Assembly: GCF_002286985.1 (NCBI RefSeq)
Contig: NZ_NSKC01000002.1
Location: 1-64,000, forward strand
Reading direction: 5' to 3'
Length of the DNA stretch: 64,000 nt
Source of the DNA: Halorubrum salipaludis
GTDB lineage: Archaea > Halobacteriota > Halobacteria > Halobacteriales > Haloferacaceae
Positions within the stretch are counted from its first letter, which is position 1; the number at the start of each line of letters is the position of its first letter. Shown piece by piece: positions 8,709-58,433 of this stretch. Below the pieces are notes generated by a model. The model did not search any database, was not told the DNA's origin, and saw only the letters and a list, made by a program, of their open reading frames with translations. A program made the translations under genes and the position numbers.

Positions 8709-10787
8709 TCAGGGGCGACGGCGCGCGACGAGCGCGACCGCGATCAGCGCGACCAGGGCGACGACCGCGCCGAAGCCGGGCGCTTCGTCGCCGCTACCGT
8801 CGTCGCTCGCCTCGTCATCGCTCATCTCGTCGTCCGACATGCCGTCATCATCTGACATGCCGTCGTCGTCCGACATGTCGTCGTCGGCGTCATCGCCGTC
8901 CCCGCCGTCCGTCTCGTCTCCCATCTCTCCGCTCGCGACCGTCAGGTCGGCGGCGGACATCACGGGTCCGCTCGCGGCCGCGTACGGGCCGTCATCGGCG
9001 CCGTCGCTGCCGGGGAAGTCGTAGGCCTCGTTGCCGTTGGTGTCGCGGTGCGCCATCGCGAAGACCGAGTCGTCCTCGGTCAGCGGGTCGTCCAGCGCGA
9101 TCTCGACGTCGGTGTGCGTCCCCGGTCCGAGGTACGCGCTGGTGCCGCGGATGGAGTCGAACACGGCGCCGTCGGCGAGCGACGAGTCGTGAACCGTCAC
9201 GAACCCGCCGTCGTGGAGCGTCACTTCGTCGACGACGACGGTGTCGCCGTCGGTCTCCTGCGCGGTCGCCGCGACGAACGCGGTCACCTGGGCGCTCGTG
9301 CCGGCCGTCACCGGGGCGTCCTCGCCGGTCAGGAAGGGGCCGTCGGCGTCTCCCTCGCTGTCGACGAAGTCGTACGCCTCGTTGCCGTTGGTGTCGCGGT
9401 GCGGCATCGCGACGAGCTGCTCCGTGTCCGTCAGCGGCTCGTCGAGCTCGATCGTCACGTCCTCGTGGACGCCGGCCTCCAGGTACGCGCTGGTGCCGCG
9501 GACGGAGTCGAACACGGCGCCGCCGCCGAGCGAGGCGTCGTGGATCGTCACGAACCCGCCCTGGCTCAGGTCGACGCGCTCGACCGTGACCGTCGCGCCG
9601 TCCGAATCGGCCGTCTCGAACGCGACGCCCGCGGAGACGGTGACGTTCCCGTCGTCCATCACGATGTCCGACGAGTCGGTCGTGTACGGGCCGTCCTCGC
9701 TGCCGTCACTGCTCGGGAAGTCGTACGCCTCGTTGTCGTTCGTGTCCCGGTGCGCCATCGCGAACAGCGCGTCGTCCTCGGTCAGCGGGTCGTCGAGCTC
9801 GACGACGACGTCGCGGTGGATCCCCGGTTCGAGGTACGCGCTCGTTCCGCGGATCGAGTCGAACGTCGCGCCGTCCGCGAGCGAGGAGTCGTGCATCGTC
9901 ACGAACCCGCCCTCCGGCAGGTACACCTCGTCGACGACGACCGCGTTGCCGCCGGAGGACTGCGCGTCGAAGCTCGCCCGCGCGTCGTCGTCGAGTTCGA
10001 CGTCGATGCCGGTCATCACGATCTCGTCGTCGGCGTCGAGGTACGGGCCGTCCTCGCTTCCCTCACTGCTGGGAAAGTCGTACGCCTGATTGTCGTTCGT
10101 GTCCTGATGCGCCATCGCGAAGACCGTGTCGTCGTTCTGTAGCGGGTCGTCGAGCCGGACGCGAACGTCCTCGTGGACGCCCGCTTCCAGGTACTCGGTG
10201 GTGCCGCGGATGGAGTCGAACACGGCGCCGTCGGCGAGCGACGAGTCGTGGACCGTCACGAACCCGCCCTCGCTCAGCTCGACGCGGTCGACGATCACGT
10301 ACTCGCCCTCGCCGGGCTGGTCGGTCCCGCTCACGCTCGCGGAGACCGTCACGTTCGCGTCGTCCATCGCGATGTCGCCGTCGACCGTGTACGGGCCGTC
10401 GGCCTCGCCGTTCGAGGAGACGAACGTGTACGCGCGGTCGTCGTCGGTGTCCCGGTGCGCCATCGCGTGGAACGTCCCCGACTCGACCGCGTCAGTGAGC
10501 TCGACCGTCACGTTCTCGTGCGTGCCCGCGTCGAGGTACGCGCTCGTGCCGACGACGCTCCCGAGGGTGTTCCCGTCGGTCAGCGAGTCGTCGTGGATCG
10601 TCACGAAGCCGCCGTCCGGGAGGTGCACCTCGTCGACGACGACCGTGCTGCCGCCGGACGCGCCGTCGGCGAAGCTCACGCTCGCCTCGTTGGTACCGCT
10701 CTGTGCCGCGACCGCGCCAGTCGCGCCGGCGACCGCCGACACGACCACCACGACCGTCATCGCCAATGTCAATGCGCTCTTGCGCAT
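8709..10787 (-). CDS. PGF-CTERM surface protein with five DUF7282-type repeats
   Basis: This is a 692-aa secreted, surface-anchored protein. A Sec signal peptide (MRKSALTLAMTVVVVVSAVAG, cleaved near AAQS) leads. Five repeats of about 105-125 residues follow. Each has GGFVTxHDxSL, RGTSAYL, DVxVxLDDPL, FAMAHRDTNxNxAYDF and DGPY. An Asp/Ser/Met-rich linker (MSDDDG repeats) precedes the sorting signal, PGFG plus a hydrophobic helix plus RRR. That tripartite PGF-CTERM signal is recognised by archaeosortase A, which replaces it with a lipid anchor. The promoter lies 23 nt upstream. Repeat type suggests an adhesive or S-layer-associated role; this is inferred. Repeat 4 (VDLSQGGFV) is the most divergent. 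Confidence 0.92.
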   Translation of the reverse strand: MRKSALTLAMTVVVVVSAVAGATGAVAAQSGTNEASVSFADGASGGSTVVVDEVHLPDGGFVTIHDDSLTDGNTLGSVVGTSAYLDAGTHENVTVELTDAVESGTFHAMAHRDTDDDRAYTFVSSNGEADGPYTVDGDIAMDDANVTVSASVSGTDQPGEGEYVIVDRVELSEGGFVTVHDSSLADGAVFDSIRGTTEYLEAGVHEDVRVRLDDPLQNDDTVFAMAHQDTNDNQAYDFPSSEGSEDGPYLDADDEIVMTGIDVELDDDARASFDAQSSGGNAVVVDEVYLPEGGFVTMHDSSLADGATFDSIRGTSAYLEPGIHRDVVVELDDPLTEDDALFAMAHRDTNDNEAYDFPSSDGSEDGPYTTDSSDIVMDDGNVTVSAGVAFETADSDGATVTVERVDLSQGGFVTIHDASLGGGAVFDSVRGTSAYLEAGVHEDVTIELDEPLTDTEQLVAMPHRDTNGNEAYDFVDSEGDADGPFLTGEDAPVTAGTSAQVTAFVAATAQETDGDTVVVDEVTLHDGGFVTVHDSSLADGAVFDSIRGTSAYLGPGTHTDVEIALDDPLTEDDSVFAMAHRDTNGNEAYDFPGSDGADDGPYAAASGPVMSAADLTVASGEMGDETDGGDGDDADDDMSDDDGMSDDDGMSDDEMSDDEASDDGSGDEAPGFGAVVALVALIAVALVARRRP

Positions 10788-10915: not shown

Positions 10916-11281
10916 TGATCGATAGCGCGAGTGGATCTCGCAGCTCGGCGGTGGTAATTGGATATTTAAACAGGAATGAGCGATTGCGACGATCGCTTAT
11001 AAAGAACGATGTGGTGGCGTCGCCGGCGGCGAAGCCGCCGGCTGCAAGCGAGAGCTGTGCTCTCGCCCTGCGTGCCTGCGAGGCCGCTCCGCGGCCGAGG
11101 AGCACGCGCGAGGGAGTCGGGCGGCCGGAGCGAAGCGGAGGCCGGCCGACGAGGCTGGGGCTTTGAAGGTCTTCACCGCAACATCGTCGATCACTTATAA
11201 ACACCCGCCAGCACCACCGCAATCAGACTTATAAACAACCACGCTACCAACGTACGAGACTCACTCCCGTCATCGATCAAG
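10916..11281 (+). repeat. Dispersed structured element, copy A (deleted form)
   Basis: This non-coding copy is bounded by imperfect inverted ends. TGATCGATAGCGCGAGTG at the left matches TGATCGATGACGGGAGTG read inward from the right end (20 of 25 positions over the full end). Inside lie GATCGCTTATAAA, hairpin 1 (GGCCGC/GCGGCC), hairpin 2 (11121-11150, GGCCGG/CCGGCC) and GAGGCTGGGGCTTTGAAGG. Two further TTATAAAC boxes follow. Compared with copy B it lacks everything between the two GGCTGGGG motifs, as if lost by recombination between them. It fills the 554-bp gap upstream of the surface protein gene; short ORFs here are artefacts. Confidence 0.8.
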
Positions 11282-24536: not shown

Positions 24537-24985
24537 TGATCGACGGCGGGAGTGAGTTTTGTAGTTCGTCGGTGGCAAGGTAGTATTTAAATGGTCGTGA
24601 GCGACGGCGACGATCGCTTATAAATATGTGCGGTGGCGCGTGCCTGCGAGCGGCCGACAGGCCGCGAGGAGCACGCGCGAGGGAGTCGGCCGGCGCTTAT
24701 AAGCGCCGGGCGACGAGGCTGGGGAGGCGTGAGGCTGCGGTGCGGTCGCGGGGTGGGACTCAAAGGGGCAGCCGCGAGGCGGGCGCAGGCGACGTAAGCA
24801 CCGCAGCGAAGGAGCGACAGCGACTGAGCGAGGAGCACAGCGAGCGTGCGCCCGCCTCGCCGGCTGGGGCTTTGGAGGTGTTCACCACAGACACGTCGAT
24901 CACGTATAAACAGCCGCCAGCGACACCCCAATCTGACTTATAAACAACCGATCCGCCAATTTGCCATACTCACTCCCGCTGTCAA
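24537..24985 (+). repeat. Dispersed structured element, copy B (full)
   Basis: This is a complete copy between convergent genes. Both ends carry a GCGGGAGTGAGT motif in inverted orientation. Inside, in order: GATCGCTTATAAA; hairpin 1 (CGGCC/GGCCG); a perfect palindrome at 24690-24709 (CCGGCGCTTA/TAAGCGCCGG); GAGGCTGGGGAGGCGTGAGG; and CTCAAAGGGGCAG. A 13-bp stem pairs 24775-24787 with 24847-24859, its loop containing CGACGTAAGCACCG. Then come CTGGGGCTTTGGAGG and two TATA-like boxes. CTCAAAG pairs with CTTTGGAG outside a GGG/GGG internal loop. Short ORFs inside are artefacts. Confidence 0.85.
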
Positions 24986-28603: not shown

Positions 28604-30919
28604 TTACACCTGATCGTCCGAACCCGCATCGTTCGGCTCCTCGTCCGCGGCCACGGAGTCCCCGTCTGCTCCTTCCGGGTCTCCGTCTGCGGCCTCCGAG
28701 TCCTCCTCTGCGTCTCCCGAATCTCCGCCTCTCTCCGTCGAATCTGCGTCCGAATCTCCCGACTGGTCGTCCGCACCCGGTGATTCCCCGTCCACGTCCG
28801 TCGAGTCGGATTTTCCGTCCCCCGAGTCGGATTTTCCGTCCCCCGAGTCGGATTTTCCGTCCCCCGAGTCGGATTTTCCGTCCCCCGAGTCGGATTTTCC
28901 GTCCCCCGAGTCGGATTTTCCGTCCCCCGAGTCGGATTTCCCGTCTCCCGCGTCGGCGGGCCCGTCAGTCGGCTCGGCGGAGCCGATCTCGTCGGGCAGC
29001 GTTGACGGGTCCGGCGTCTCGCCCGGCGACTCGTCGCTTCCGTCGACCCCGTGCGGTTCCGCCGATTCGATCGGACTCGACGAGTCCTCGGATTCCGAGG
29101 CGTCCGCCGGATCGGCCGGATCAGCCGGATCAGCCGGATCAGCCGGATCGGCCGGATCGGCGGGCTCGAACCCGGCCGTCTCCAGATCGGCGTCGGCCTC
29201 GCGCCGCGGGTCGTGCCCGCGCTCCCGGAGGATCCGGCGGACGGCCTCCCGGTCGACGGTCCCGGACACGGTTCGGGGGAGCTCGTCGACGTACGCGACG
29301 GTTTTCGGGATCTTGAACCCCGCGAGTCGGTCCCGGGCGAATGAGACGAGCTGCGCTTCGTCCACGAGCGGCGCCGGGTCGCTCTCGGCCCGACGGTCTA
29401 TGTCGCCCTCCGGCGGCTCGGGCGAGCCGTCGCCCTCCGAGCCCTTGCCGCCGACCTCCTCCTCCGAGTCGTCAGGATCGGCCGGATCAGCCATGTTGGC
29501 TGGCTCGTCTAGCTCGTCCGGGTCGGTTGGGCCGGCGACTCCCAACAGGTCACCGACCGCGAGCAGCGCGGAGACGCGCTCGCCCCACACGTCGTCGTCG
29601 AGCCCGACCACGGCGGCGTCCTCGACCTGCGGGAACTCCCGGAGCACGTCGACCACCTCGCCGGGCTCGACGTTCTCGCCGCCGGTGACGATCCGGTCGT
29701 CGAGCCGGTTGAGCACGTAGAGGAACCCCTCGTCGTCGATGCGCCCCACGTCGCCGGTGTGGAGACCGTGCGGGCCGAACGCCGAGCGGTCGAGGGTGCC
29801 CTCTTCATCCCCCGGCGGTCCGGCGATGTATCCGGGCGTGATCGTCGGACCGTCGACGACGATCTCGCCGGCCTCCCCGGGCTCGGCCGGCGTCCCGTCC
29901 CCGTCGACGACCGTCACGTCCGTGCCGAAGACGGGTCGGCCGACGGTTCCGAGCCGCCCCCGCGTCTGCCGCGGCGTCGCGGTCGCGATCTGCGAGGCCG
30001 ACTCGGTCATCCCGTAGGTCGGGTACACCGGGATCGAGTAGTCGCGGCAGCGCTCGATCAGCTCGTCCGGGGCGGGCGCCCCGCCGAGCAGCACCACCCG
30101 GAGCGTGTCCGAGAGGGTCCCCCGCCGGTCGAGCATCTGCTTGAGCATGGTCGGGACCAGCGAGATCCCGGTCACGTCGTAGGCGTCGATGTCGTCGGCG
30201 GTGCCGCCCGGATCGAACCCCTCGCGGAGCACGAGCGTCGTCCCGTAGAGCGCGGAGCGGTACACCGGGGCGAGCCCGCCCATGTGGTGGAGCGACAGCG
30301 ACACGAGCCACCGGTCCCCGCCGTCGACGCCGAGCCGGAACGCGGAGGCGACCGCCGAGCTGTACACGTTGCCCGCGGTGAGCGGGACCGGCTTGGGCTC
30401 GCCTGTCGTCCCCGAGGTGAACAGGACACAGAGGTAGTCGGACTCGGCCCACTCCGCCGGCTCGACGGGGTCCGGATCGACGCTGTGGACCGCCGTGACG
30501 CTCTGGGACGCCGGATCGTCCACGGAGAGCACCGGGATCTCACCGACGGCGTCGCACTCCTCGACGGCGCCCACCGCGGCGTCCTCCGTCGGCTCCGCGC
30601 ACACCACCGCGTCGAGGTCGGCCCGCTCGACGCGCTCGGCGAGCTCCCGCTCCGTCAGCTCCTGTCCGAGGGGGACGAACGTCGCCCCGATGCGCATCGC
30701 CGCGTGGACGAGCCCGACGGTGCCGACGTAGGGGGGCGTGAGGACGCCGAGCCTGTCGTCCGCCTCGACGCCGTGCCCGACGAGCCGGCCGGCGGTCTCG
30801 GAGACGAGCCGGTCGAGGTCGGTGTAGGTCCACGCCTCGCCGTCCTCGGCGCGGATCAGCGCGGTGTGGTCCGGCGAGGAGACGACCCGATGTGACAGCC
30901 AGTCGCGCATCGTCGTCAC
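28604..30919 (-). CDS. menE: o-Succinylbenzoate-CoA ligase with acidic repeat tail
   Basis: This 771-aa protein is an acyl-adenylate ligase. Motifs are LFTSGTTGEPKPVPL (P-loop), YGMTESASQ, HTGDVGRIDDEGFLY, NRLDDRI and GGENVEPGEV, best fitting MenE of menaquinone synthesis. The A10 motif reads PRTVSGTVDR, so the usual catalytic lysine (GK) is Thr. An acidic insert of about 60 residues splits the C-terminal subdomain near residues 465-525. The last 200 residues are disordered: a PAD repeat, then seven GDGKSDS units, then Asp/Glu/Ser-rich sequence. A normal MenE is about 500-550 aa. Start ATG 30910 is an alternative. It lies 15 bp after uspA. Confidence 0.88.
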   Translation of the reverse strand: MTTMRDWLSHRVVSSPDHTALIRAEDGEAWTYTDLDRLVSETAGRLVGHGVEADDRLGVLTPPYVGTVGLVHAAMRIGATFVPLGQELTERELAERVERADLDAVVCAEPTEDAAVGAVEECDAVGEIPVLSVDDPASQSVTAVHSVDPDPVEPAEWAESDYLCVLFTSGTTGEPKPVPLTAGNVYSSAVASAFRLGVDGGDRWLVSLSLHHMGGLAPVYRSALYGTTLVLREGFDPGGTADDIDAYDVTGISLVPTMLKQMLDRRGTLSDTLRVVLLGGAPAPDELIERCRDYSIPVYPTYGMTESASQIATATPRQTRGRLGTVGRPVFGTDVTVVDGDGTPAEPGEAGEIVVDGPTITPGYIAGPPGDEEGTLDRSAFGPHGLHTGDVGRIDDEGFLYVLNRLDDRIVTGGENVEPGEVVDVLREFPQVEDAAVVGLDDDVWGERVSALLAVGDLLGVAGPTDPDELDEPANMADPADPDDSEEEVGGKGSEGDGSPEPPEGDIDRRAESDPAPLVDEAQLVSFARDRLAGFKIPKTVAYVDELPRTVSGTVDREAVRRILRERGHDPRREADADLETAGFEPADPADPADPADPADPADPADASESEDSSSPIESAEPHGVDGSDESPGETPDPSTLPDEIGSAEPTDGPADAGDGKSDSGDGKSDSGDGKSDSGDGKSDSGDGKSDSGDGKSDSGDGKSDSTDVDGESPGADDQSGDSDADSTERGGDSGDAEEDSEAADGDPEGADGDSVAADEEPNDAGSDDQV
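28803..28950 (-). repeat. 21-bp coding tandem repeat in menE tail
   Basis: Seven 21-bp units (GAGTCGGATTTTCCGTCCCC plus one base on the plus strand) start at 28803, 28824, 28845, 28866, 28887, 28908 and 28929. They encode GDGKSDS. The first six are essentially identical at DNA level, so the array is young and probably variable in length between strains. Confidence 0.92.
29106..29165 (-). repeat. 9-bp coding tandem repeat in menE
   Basis: About six copies of a 9-bp unit (GCCGGATCA or GCCGGATCG) encode PAD tripeptides just after the ligase core. A shorter run of the same unit occurs near 29481-29492 in the insert. Confidence 0.8.
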
Positions 30920-32675: not shown

Positions 32676-32785
32676 TGGCCGAGATCGGACTGCTATCGGG
32701 CTGATGTCGGACTACTATCGGGCTGATGTCGGACTACTATCGGGCTGATGTCGGACTGCTATCGAGCCGATGTCGGATCGATGCC
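32676..32785. repeat. 22-bp tandem repeat upstream of 32862 gene
   Basis: GGGCTGATGTCGGACTACTA-type units start at 32698, 32720 and 32742, with degenerate copies on both sides (GAGATCGGACTGCTATC; GAGCCGATGTCGGATCG). The period of 22 bp is close to two helical turns. The array ends 25-30 bp before an AT-rich promoter, so it may be a regulator landing array. The remaining intergenic sequence from 32449 to 32675 shows nothing recognisable. Confidence 0.8.
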
Positions 32786-55711: not shown

Positions 55712-56029
55712 ACAGCGACGACGTATCGATTCGATCGAGACCGATGCGGTGGCGCGCCCCGGCGAGCGGCCCGGAGGGCCGCGAGCCGACGGTGCGAGGG
55801 ACGCGGTGAGCGCTCGCAGAGCGCGAACCGCGAGGCTGGGGAGGCGTGAGGCGCGGTGCTGTGCGGGGCGGGACTCGAAGGGGCAGTCGGCTCCGGGAAG
55901 ACGGCCGACGTAAGCACCGAGGAAGCGAACGAAGTGAGCGACCGAGGCGCGCAGCGAGGCCTTCGACCGGAGCCGACTGGGGCTTCGGAGGCGTTTACCG
56001 CGGTCTACGATCGATTGCGTATCAATGAG
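55712..56029 (+). repeat. Dispersed structured element, copy D (full core)
   Basis: This copy has hairpin 1 (GCGGCC/GGGCCGC), hairpin 2 (GCGCTC/GAGCGC inside GCGGT/ACCGC), GAGGCTGGGGAGGCGTGAGG and CTCGAAGGGGCAG. A 12-bp stem pairs 55885-55896 with 55967-55978, its loop containing CGACGTAAGCACCG. Then comes CTGGGGCTTCGGAGG. Relative to copies B and E the outer pair is CTCGAAG with CTTCGGAG: A-T has become G-C on both sides. The ends lack the CTTATAAA boxes. It lies upstream of mvaD. Confidence 0.85.
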
Positions 56030-56448: not shown

Positions 56449-56796
56449 ATGACCGAGTACACCGTCGAGTTCGTCGGCACCGACGAGACGATCGAGGTGG
56501 CCGACACGGAGACGATCCTCCAGCCCTGCATCGAGGCAGGGATCGCGCAGGAGTACTCCTGCCGCGTCGGGATGTGTCTCGCCTGCTCCGCGGAGATCGT
56601 CGAGGGCGAGGTGACCCAGCCGGCGGCCCGCGGACTCACCGACGAGGAGGCCGAGGAGTACGCGCTCACCTGCATGGCGCGACCGCAGTCCGACCTGAAG
56701 CTCGACCGCGGGAAGTACCCGCCGAGCATCGAGGACGACGCGGCGACCGAGGCGGGCGATTCGGATTCGGACGGGATCGCGGCCGACGACGACTGA
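56449..56796 (+). CDS. fer: 2Fe-2S ferredoxin
   Basis: This 115-aa plant-type ferredoxin carries electrons at low potential. The cluster ligands follow CX5CX2C...C: YSCRVGMCLACSAEI, then LTCMARP. The preceding strand-helix TILQPCIEAGIAQEY is typical. A halophilic acidic tail (DSDSDGIAADDD) closes it. It is shorter than the classic halobacterial ferredoxin with its N-terminal insertion, so it is a secondary, specialised ferredoxin. ACCCTTTTTGAC at 56416-56427 lies about 26 nt upstream as promoter. Confidence 0.93.
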   Translation: MTEYTVEFVGTDETIEVADTETILQPCIEAGIAQEYSCRVGMCLACSAEIVEGEVTQPAARGLTDEEAEEYALTCMARPQSDLKLDRGKYPPSIEDDAATEAGDSDSDGIAADDD

Positions 56797-56852: not shown

Positions 56853-57377
56853 GGTTGATCGCTTATAAGTGGTTGACCGCGGATCGACGGCAACCACCGC
56901 CAAAGCCCCAGCCGTTCGCTTATAAATCACTGACTGCGGATCGATGGCGAACTCCTCCAAAGCCCTAGCCGCTCGCTTATAAGTTGTCGACCGCGGATCG
57001 ACGACGAACTCCTCCAAAGCCCCAGCCGCTCGCTTATAAGTTGTCGACCGCGGATCGACGACGAACTCCTCCAAAGCCCCAGCCGTGCTCGGCTCCCACA
57101 GCTCGCTGCGCTCCTCAGTCGCTCGTTTCACTCACTCCTTGCGGTGCTTGCGTCGCTGGGGTTCGCCGAGCACGGCTGCCCCTTTGAATCCCACCCGTCC
57201 CGCACCGCCCCGCGCCTCACGCCTCCCCAGCCTCGTCGGTCGCCCTCCGCGTTGCTCCGGGCGACCGACTCCCTCGCACGCGCTCCTCGCGGCCGCCGAT
57301 GGCGGCCGCTCGGAGGCGCGCGCCCACCGCCTCGTTCGTTTATAAGCAATCGCCGTTCGTTTATAAGTGATCGTCGC
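56853..57377 (-). repeat. Dispersed structured element, copy E (full, amplified tail)
   Basis: This copy is in minus orientation between convergent genes. It starts next to the permease stop with two TTATAAAC boxes. Hairpin 1 is GGCCGCC/GGCGGCC. Hairpin 2 is a perfect 11-bp stem (57235-57245 with 57259-57269). GAGGCTGGGGAGGCGTGAGG and TTCAAAGGGGCAG follow. The long hairpin has a 12-bp stem (57081-57092 with 57166-57177). The 3' tail is a tandem array: CAAAGCCC starts at 56901, 56958, 57015 and 57072, exactly 57 bp apart, each unit with a CTTATAA box. Short ORFs here are artefacts. Confidence 0.88.
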
Positions 57378-58433
57378 TCACGTCTCGAACCCGTTCTCCG
57401 CGACGATCGTCCGGACGCCGGCGTACGCGACCGCGGCGAGGCCGACGTACGCGACCACGAGGGCCGTCGTCGTCGCGTCGGCGCTGTCGATCGCGAGCCG
57501 CGCGACCGCGTTCGCGGGGCCGCCCGCCATCGCCGTGGCGCCGCCGAAGAGGACCAAGACGCCGATCGAGTAGAGGAACTGCGCCGCGCGCCGGTCGGGC
57601 GCGAGCGCCGAGATGGCGAGCGCCAGCGCGACGACAAGCGCGGTGAGCGCGGTCATCAGCACGAGGATCGACGGGACGTTCGCCACCGGCGTCCCGTTCG
57701 CGCGGAGCAGGAGCAGCCACAGCAGCGCCTGTCCGGGCGCGATCGCGACCGCCGCCAGCGCCTTCCCGTCGACGATCTCGCCGAGCGTGACGGGCGCGAC
57801 GCGGAGCAGCTCGAAGGTCCCCTCGTCGAGCTCCTCGGTGATCGAGTCGACCACGAGCGACCCCGAGATGAAGACGGGGAGGAAGACGAGGACGGGGATC
57901 AACACGGTGTACGTGAACGTGAAGTACGGGCTGGTGCCGGTCCTGTCGGGCAGCGGCAGCGGGGATTCGCTCAGGTAGGCGGCCCGGTCCGCGCGCTCCT
58001 GACGCTCGTACGTCCGGAGCAGATCGCGGAGCTGAACGACGATCACGGTGGTCTCCACCGTCGCGTCCGGCGCGGTGACCACCACCGAGATCCCCCCGTC
58101 GTCGTTGCGGTTCGCGACCACCACCGCGTCGGCGGCGTTGCGGTCGAAGGCGAGCCGCGCCTCGCCGGCGTCCTCGTAGCGCGTCACCGAGGCCCCGTCG
58201 ACCTCGCTCGCGGCGCGTTCGAGGTCGCTCACGGCGTCGCCCGCGCCAGCGACCTCCACCTCCGCGCCGCCGAGCGAGCCGGGGTCGTACATCGAGACGA
58301 GCCCGACGACGAGGAACGACGAGAACGCGGCGATGAACAGCTGGATCCCGATCGCGAGCAGGATCGTCTTCTCCGCGCGCAGCCCCGACAGCTCCCGGCC
58401 GGCGATCGTCAGGCGGCTGTCCCGGCTACGCAT
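57378..58433 (-). CDS. ABC-2 type transporter permease
   Basis: This 351-aa protein has one N-terminal helix, a large extracellular domain of about 120 residues, and five C-terminal helices, the ABC-2/NatB-like layout. The SGSLVVDSITEELDEGTFELLRVAPVTLGEIVDGKALAA segment is the conserved cytoplasmic loop that contacts the ATPase. It is third in the operon, overlapping the upstream permease gene by 8 bp. Together with the two upstream genes it forms an exporter; the substrate is unknown, with Na+ or a peptide possible by analogy with NatAB. Confidence 0.9.
   Translation of the reverse strand: MRSRDSRLTIAGRELSGLRAEKTILLAIGIQLFIAAFSSFLVVGLVSMYDPGSLGGAEVEVAGAGDAVSDLERAASEVDGASVTRYEDAGEARLAFDRNAADAVVVANRNDDGGISVVVTAPDATVETTVIVVQLRDLLRTYERQERADRAAYLSESPLPLPDRTGTSPYFTFTYTVLIPVLVFLPVFISGSLVVDSITEELDEGTFELLRVAPVTLGEIVDGKALAAVAIAPGQALLWLLLLRANGTPVANVPSILVLMTALTALVVALALAISALAPDRRAAQFLYSIGVLVLFGGATAMAGGPANAVARLAIDSADATTTALVVAYVGLAAVAYAGVRTIVAENGFET

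Follow-up and report, generated by a model that had tools for sequence, protein, structure and literature searches.

A four-unit 57-bp array in Halorubrum salipaludis is probably the amplified arm of a dispersed, palindrome-rich element

The analysed stretch of Halorubrum salipaludis DNA (64,000 nucleotides, hereafter the window) contains a tandem array in the gap between two convergent genes. The left-hand gene (56449–56796, forward strand, from the list of open reading frames) encodes a 2Fe-2S ferredoxin-like protein (EYSCRVGMCLACS); it stops 62 bp before the array and has orthologues in all 52 Halorubrum genomes searched. The right-hand gene (57378–58433, reverse strand) encodes a membrane protein; inspection of the translation points to a probable ABC transporter permease, and no more than about 5 bp separate the stop codon from the element described below. 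The array spans positions 56859–57085, with a period of 57, 4.0 copies, 87% matches, and 0% indels (TRF). The first-pass annotation had described an exact 57-bp period with a TATA box in each repeat, and both descriptions hold: CAAAGCCC starts at 56901, 56958, 57015, and 57072, and TTATAA is found in four of four units. Read on the forward strand, unit 1 (56859–56915) has TTATAA at 56863 and CAAAGCCCCAG at 56901; unit 2 (56916–56972) has TTATAA at 56920 and a variant box, CAAAGCCCTAG, at 56958; unit 3 (56973–57029) has TTATAA at 56977 and CAAAGCCCCAG at 57015; and unit 4 (57030–57085) has TTATAA at 57034 and CAAAGCCCCAG at 57072, where the box doubles as the left foot of a hairpin. Units 3 and 4 are identical across the 57 bp compared, and the identity of neighbouring units is 0.75–0.82 where units 1 or 2 are involved; units 1 and 2 are the older ones. 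Two motifs that had been ascribed to every repeat, or to most of them, proved less general. The palindromic CGATCCGCGGTCGA block and the minus-orientation GGCTGGGGCTTTGGAGG are exact in units 3 and 4 only; the latter gives way to GGCGG in unit 1 and to CTAGGGC in unit 2, and the former corresponds, family-wide, to a weakly conserved GCGGATCGACGG stretch with no palindrome. The window holds other tandem repeats as well, with periods of 351 bp (8982–10277, 3.7 copies), 21 bp (28795–28956, 7.7 copies), and 22 bp (32685–32777, 4.2 copies).

The array runs into a core hairpin (57072–57186, forward strand), recognised from fold z-scores and from covariation over 45 copies, with semi-conserved inner arms. 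Its foot pairs CAAAG (57072–57076) with CTTTG (57182–57186), an unpaired internal loop sets CCCC (57077–57080) opposite GCCC (57178–57181), and a 14-bp stem joins 57081–57094 to 57164–57177. The fold z-scores are −4.95 (forward strand) and −3.90 (reverse strand) for DNA, and −5.58 and −5.22 for RNA. To its right, on the same strand, follow a conserved box TTTGAATCCCACCC (57183–57196; family form TTTGAGTCCCACCC, in other genera TTTCAGTCCCACCC); a second conserved box CCTCACGCCTCCCCAGCCTCG (57215–57235), seen when oriented copies were compared; a second hairpin GTCGGTCGCCC..GGGCGACCGAC (57235–57269), whose sequence varies between copies; a third hairpin, an inverted repeat around CTCCTCGCGGCCGCC..GGCGGCCGCTCGGAG (57279–57322); and a right sub-terminal TTTATAAG block (57333–57374). 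According to the alignment of orthologues, this last block, with TTATAA at 57340 and 57361, is tandemly doubled here with a 21-bp period and single in orthologues. Oriented copies have a common anatomy, which consists of one or more left-arm units in which CAAAGCCCCAG starts 38 nt after TTATAA, the core hairpin from CAAAGCCCCAG to GCCCCTTTGAGTCCCACCC, the CCTCACGCCTCCCCAGCCTCG box, two further hairpins that are copy-specific in sequence, and the right TTTATAAG block. In three copies (L012, L018, and L026) the loops of these two further hairpins often read GCGCTTATAAGCGC or CCCTTATAAGGG, so that CTTATAAG also centres perfect palindromes. The sequence TTCGAGTCCC is tRNA-like in look and has no pairing partner for the T-arm.

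The array had been taken for the tail of a repeated element, and the dispersal of the same unit pattern through the genome bears this out. A 400-bp element query gave 45 matches in the 3.5-Mb genome of H. salipaludis, with copies matching at 69–89%. A search for the exact pattern TTATAA...CAAAGCCCCAG gave 95 occurrences in this genome and none for the reversed control; the pattern is therefore not due to chance. Of 34 other Halorubrum genomes, 27 carry such units, in as many as 181 copies, and none of the 24 genomes searched outside the genus does; the hairpin of the element recurs, without the TATA unit, in other haloarchaeal families. Loci were sampled around sequence matches and by synteny. 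Copies on the reverse strand of the window include one with a single box and no TATA (55815–55995), flanked by a small gene and one that resembles diphosphomevalonate decarboxylase genes; a full-length one whose two ends carry terminal inverted repeats (GCGGGAGTGAGT..; 24546–24979), useful as a boundary reference; and one without the core hairpin (11125–11200), in which CAAAGCCCCAGCC is fused to the CCCCAGCCTCGTC of the second box, and which looks as expected for a deletion between two CCCCAGCC repeats. Elsewhere (L191/L203, G052:C9:3446–3696), two family hairpins stand opposed about 12 bp apart and make a large compound palindrome.

Terminal inverted repeats near TGATCGATAGCGGGAGTGGGTATTGCA were found in 14 copies, with ends 280–545 bp apart. 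The genome of H. salipaludis has many opposed pairs of terminal repeats 300–630 bp apart and none 1–3 kb apart, and therefore no transposase-bearing version was seen. Its sole Y1 transposase locus (L284) carries none of the motifs of the element. Rfam 15 gave nothing on the element and one chance-level match elsewhere, 50,697 phage records gave 0 matches, and plasmids gave partial matches only, in 21 haloarchaeal records. The open-access literature, with subscription papers and ISfinder outside the search, yielded no description of the family.

The history of the array can be followed at its own site. The ferredoxin/permease gap carries the element in seven Halorubrum species, at one and the same offset (+104 nt from the ferredoxin stop to the first box), and the numbers of units are 4 (in H. 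salipaludis), 2, 2, 1, 1, 1, and 1. The first box of L079 reads CCAAGCCCCAG; the second units of L079 (54 bp) and L080 (60 bp) are without TTATAA, and L082 has lost it in its sole unit. The hairpins at this site are of clearly different sequence types between species, and those of L081 and L082 are broken or replaced. L086 is the one orthologous gap in which the gene order is kept and the element is absent; it may be an empty site or may equally reflect a loss. Because this one gap holds 1, 2, or 4 units and differing hairpin types among seven species, the four-unit array is most simply explained as having arisen after insertion. Counterparts of the copy at 55.8–56.0 kb, with other hairpins, are present in L079 (G015) and L093 (G022); at this decarboxylase-side position G015 has tandem units reading GGCAATAAG, and L085 shows a deletion scar. 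The stretches of four relatives show further differences in presence and absence; for instance, a copy follows the gene ending GCCGACGACTAG in G015 and G030, and there is none in the window at 48.8 kb. In G030 (C2 near 1449380, L273) the left and right arms of one chimaeric hairpin are of different sequence types, likely a snapshot of one-arm recombination.

Tandem units are common across the family, with at least two boxes in 27 of 41 elements of the H. salipaludis genome and in 25 of 67 other elements. Box spacings are exactly 57 in 59 of 78 cases and multiples of 3 in 75 of 78. Adjacent units have a mean identity of 0.71 (up to 1.0), compared with 0.55 for units of different elements. In another haloarchaeal family (L197, L200) the equivalent arm is duplicated without any TATA, and duplication is thus a habit of the arm, independent of the TATA box.

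Taken with the orthologous sites, these patterns make it probable that the array represents the left arm of an intergenic, palindrome-rich Halorubrum element that is dispersed and carries no genes, the arm having been amplified by slippage or unequal recombination. Insertion into the ferredoxin/permease gap would have preceded the separation of several Halorubrum species, and the arm of the element would then have been tandem-duplicated to four units in the lineage of H. salipaludis. The most likely mechanism is replication slippage or unequal recombination, acting between CAAAGCCCCAGCCG boxes beside the stable hairpin. Hairpin sequences may have been exchanged as blocks between copies, presumably by gene conversion, with their pairing kept. 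Mobilisation would occur in trans, by a putative transposase, and copies would be tolerated chiefly at gene 3′ ends. The TATA boxes belong to the conserved parts of the element, and their multiplication is probably a by-product. Several observations count against this explanation. Many adjacent pairs of units are only 0.45–0.6 identical, like unrelated units, yet stand 57 bp apart; the maintenance of this spacing between dissimilar units suggests a geometric constraint, for which by-product duplication does not account. Terminal inverted repeats were not found on the 57-kb copy, the 14 end pairs, whose ends are fuzzy, showed no target-site duplication by eye, the search for opposed repeats in the H. 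salipaludis genome found no autonomous partner, and no element was caught moving.

The arms of the 137 hairpins that we collected vary freely yet match each other. In an ungapped alignment of 45 copies, in which an artificial TTCG spacer links the arms, 95.7% of the cells are paired, 212 cells are double-changed (68 when shuffled), and covariation reaches 0.69, compared with 0.15 when shuffled and at most 0.09 when the partner is slid by 1–3 columns. Arms match at 91% within their own hairpin and at 51% when re-paired between copies. The foot covaries too, being CAAAG/CTTTG in Halorubrum and GAAAG/CTTTC or GGAAG/CTTCC in other haloarchaeal families. Only 3 of 765 cells are G-U, unlike a typical selected RNA helix, which points to folding at the DNA level or to arms that change jointly by copying. 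If the latter, the covariation could be mutational and not selected, with template switching copying arm onto arm and recombination swapping cassettes. We regard this as a possibility to be held tentatively; it applies to the hairpin and does not conflict with the array being an amplified arm. It fits the way arms change together with wobble intermediates nearly absent, the wholesale block differences at orthologous sites, and the two arm types of the chimaeric hairpin in G030. However, the CCCC/GCCC loop is unpaired in 102 of 105 Halorubrum hairpins, and arm-to-arm correction should erase it.

DNA-level folding might instead have a function. The first-pass annotation had correctly placed the array between convergent genes and suggested that it could buffer them, and such gaps are indeed favoured by the family: 22 of 38 elements lie in them, and among 100 gaps with a length of 200 bp or more 28 are convergent (Fisher p = 0.0015; gene positions from a codon-usage gene caller, and an approximate baseline from five blocks that includes element-bearing gaps). 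The element could thus be a DNA device at convergent 3′ ends, whose cruciforms, with their C4/C4 and G4/G4 loops, absorb supercoiling or block read-through, and whose units act as spacers or protein sites. Pairing that is kept with almost no wobble is expected if DNA folds rather than RNA, and the same site is retained in several species. Yet the enrichment fits promoter avoidance by a mobile repeat as well as it fits a 3′-end function, for gene-less mobile repeats are in any case found there, insertions elsewhere being harmful. Moreover, some orthologous gaps have no element (L086) or a broken hairpin (L081). A T stretch serves as the main intergenic terminator motif in Haloferax, where some hairpins occur as well (PMC7237163); the element has no such stretch and is therefore not a standard terminator. 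We consider this functional reading unlikely.

The annotation had further proposed that TATA boxes reiterated at a fixed spacing could give phased transcription starts. Each unit would then be an archaeal promoter that starts about 26–27 bp on, at a conserved GTGA, and fires rightward into the hairpin to yield a structured noncoding RNA, extra units adding starts. Part of this design is present. Of the 68 units in the genome sample, 52 have TTATAA, and in 35 of these the spacing to the box is 38 nt; G-9 and A-8 before the box carry 1.6 bits each, with much of the sequence between weakly conserved; and a strongly conserved purine pair lies about 26–27 bp downstream of the TATA centre, the position at which an archaeal transcript would be expected to start. 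The RNA fold z of −5.6 and the strong covariation agree with a structured transcript. The rest of the design fares poorly. Compared with 14 reference promoters only, the forward direction shows GCTCGC, without the purines of a BRE, and the minus direction is somewhat closer. TATA is lost in orthologous units, TATA-less units duplicate, and successive boxes do not fall on one helix face, because 57 bp correspond to 5.4 helical turns. Against an RNA product stand the scarcity of G-U cells noted above and the lack of any Rfam match. Stem mismatches show no G-T excess on the forward strand, and a rightward hairpin RNA is therefore unsupported by the wobble test. That test was itself set aside as an indicator of the transcribed strand: A-C and G-T mismatches number 28:12 unique events, and the A-C tendency loses significance (17:11) when one position is removed. 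The element thus resembles haloarchaeal promoters in its TTATAA at a fixed distance from a purine pair and differs from them in that its BRE is not evident and its TATA is lost between orthologues. The TATA-like boxes belong to the unit of the element, with no sign of a purpose-built promoter array; the promoter-array idea is weakened, and we rate its odds as poor.

More doubtful still is a haloarchaea-wide hairpin family in which structure is conserved and sequence is not, where cassettes are exchanged and the C4/C4 (G4/G4) loop pairs copies by quadruplex, as a site of recombination or synapsis. The G4/G4 on the other strand and further G-tracts nearby could aid a quadruplex between copies, and haloarchaeal cells have very high potassium. 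Finally, that the units encode a 19-residue peptide repeat is hardly credible and largely refuted: 57 and nearly all spacings are multiples of 3, and one minus frame is open through the 57-kb array, but every frame contains stops in many units (54 stops in 154 distinct units in the best one), and hence the multiples of 3 are not due to coding.

Its sequence suggests that the element is most likely MITE/SMR-like. The SMRs and MITEs of Haloquadratum walsbyi (PMC3119063) are likewise short, gene-less, and dispersed, with no target duplication seen and with nested insertions of extra palindromes, and full-length copies here have terminal inverted repeats. These repeats showed, however, no link to a transposon among their opposed pairs in this genome, and the internal covarying hairpin and tandem arm units are further differences. 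Palindromes, heterogeneous sequences, core deletions between short repeats, and different repeats at one position ("SwitchRepeats") are shared with palindrome-associated transposable elements (PATEs) and IS605-type transposons (PMC3119063); the sole Y1 locus of this genome has none of the element's motifs. None of the published haloarchaeal classes (PMC3119063) formally accommodates the element: PATEs, whose near-terminal palindromes resemble those of an IS605 transposon, have no terminal inverted repeats, unlike its full-length copies; SMR copies are usually >95% identical, and those of the element are far more divergent; and its agreement with MITEs is partial, at about 280–545 bp and with no stop-free frame through the units it being too short for a transposase. 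Bacterial REPs and REPINs also form many intergenic palindromic copies, but REPs measure 20–40 bp (PMC3733652, PMC3116915); the element described here is longer and has conserved boxes, and no linked Y1 (RAYT-type) transposase was seen for it.

Many Halorubrum genomes carry tens to more than 100 of these units at gene ends, where an annotator might take them for promoters or discard them as unrelated noise. A single element family accounts jointly for these TATA-like boxes, for the tandem arrays, and for the hairpins in convergent gaps. It also provides a natural system for studying how arms stay paired amid sequence turnover, and whether selection or template switching is the cause.
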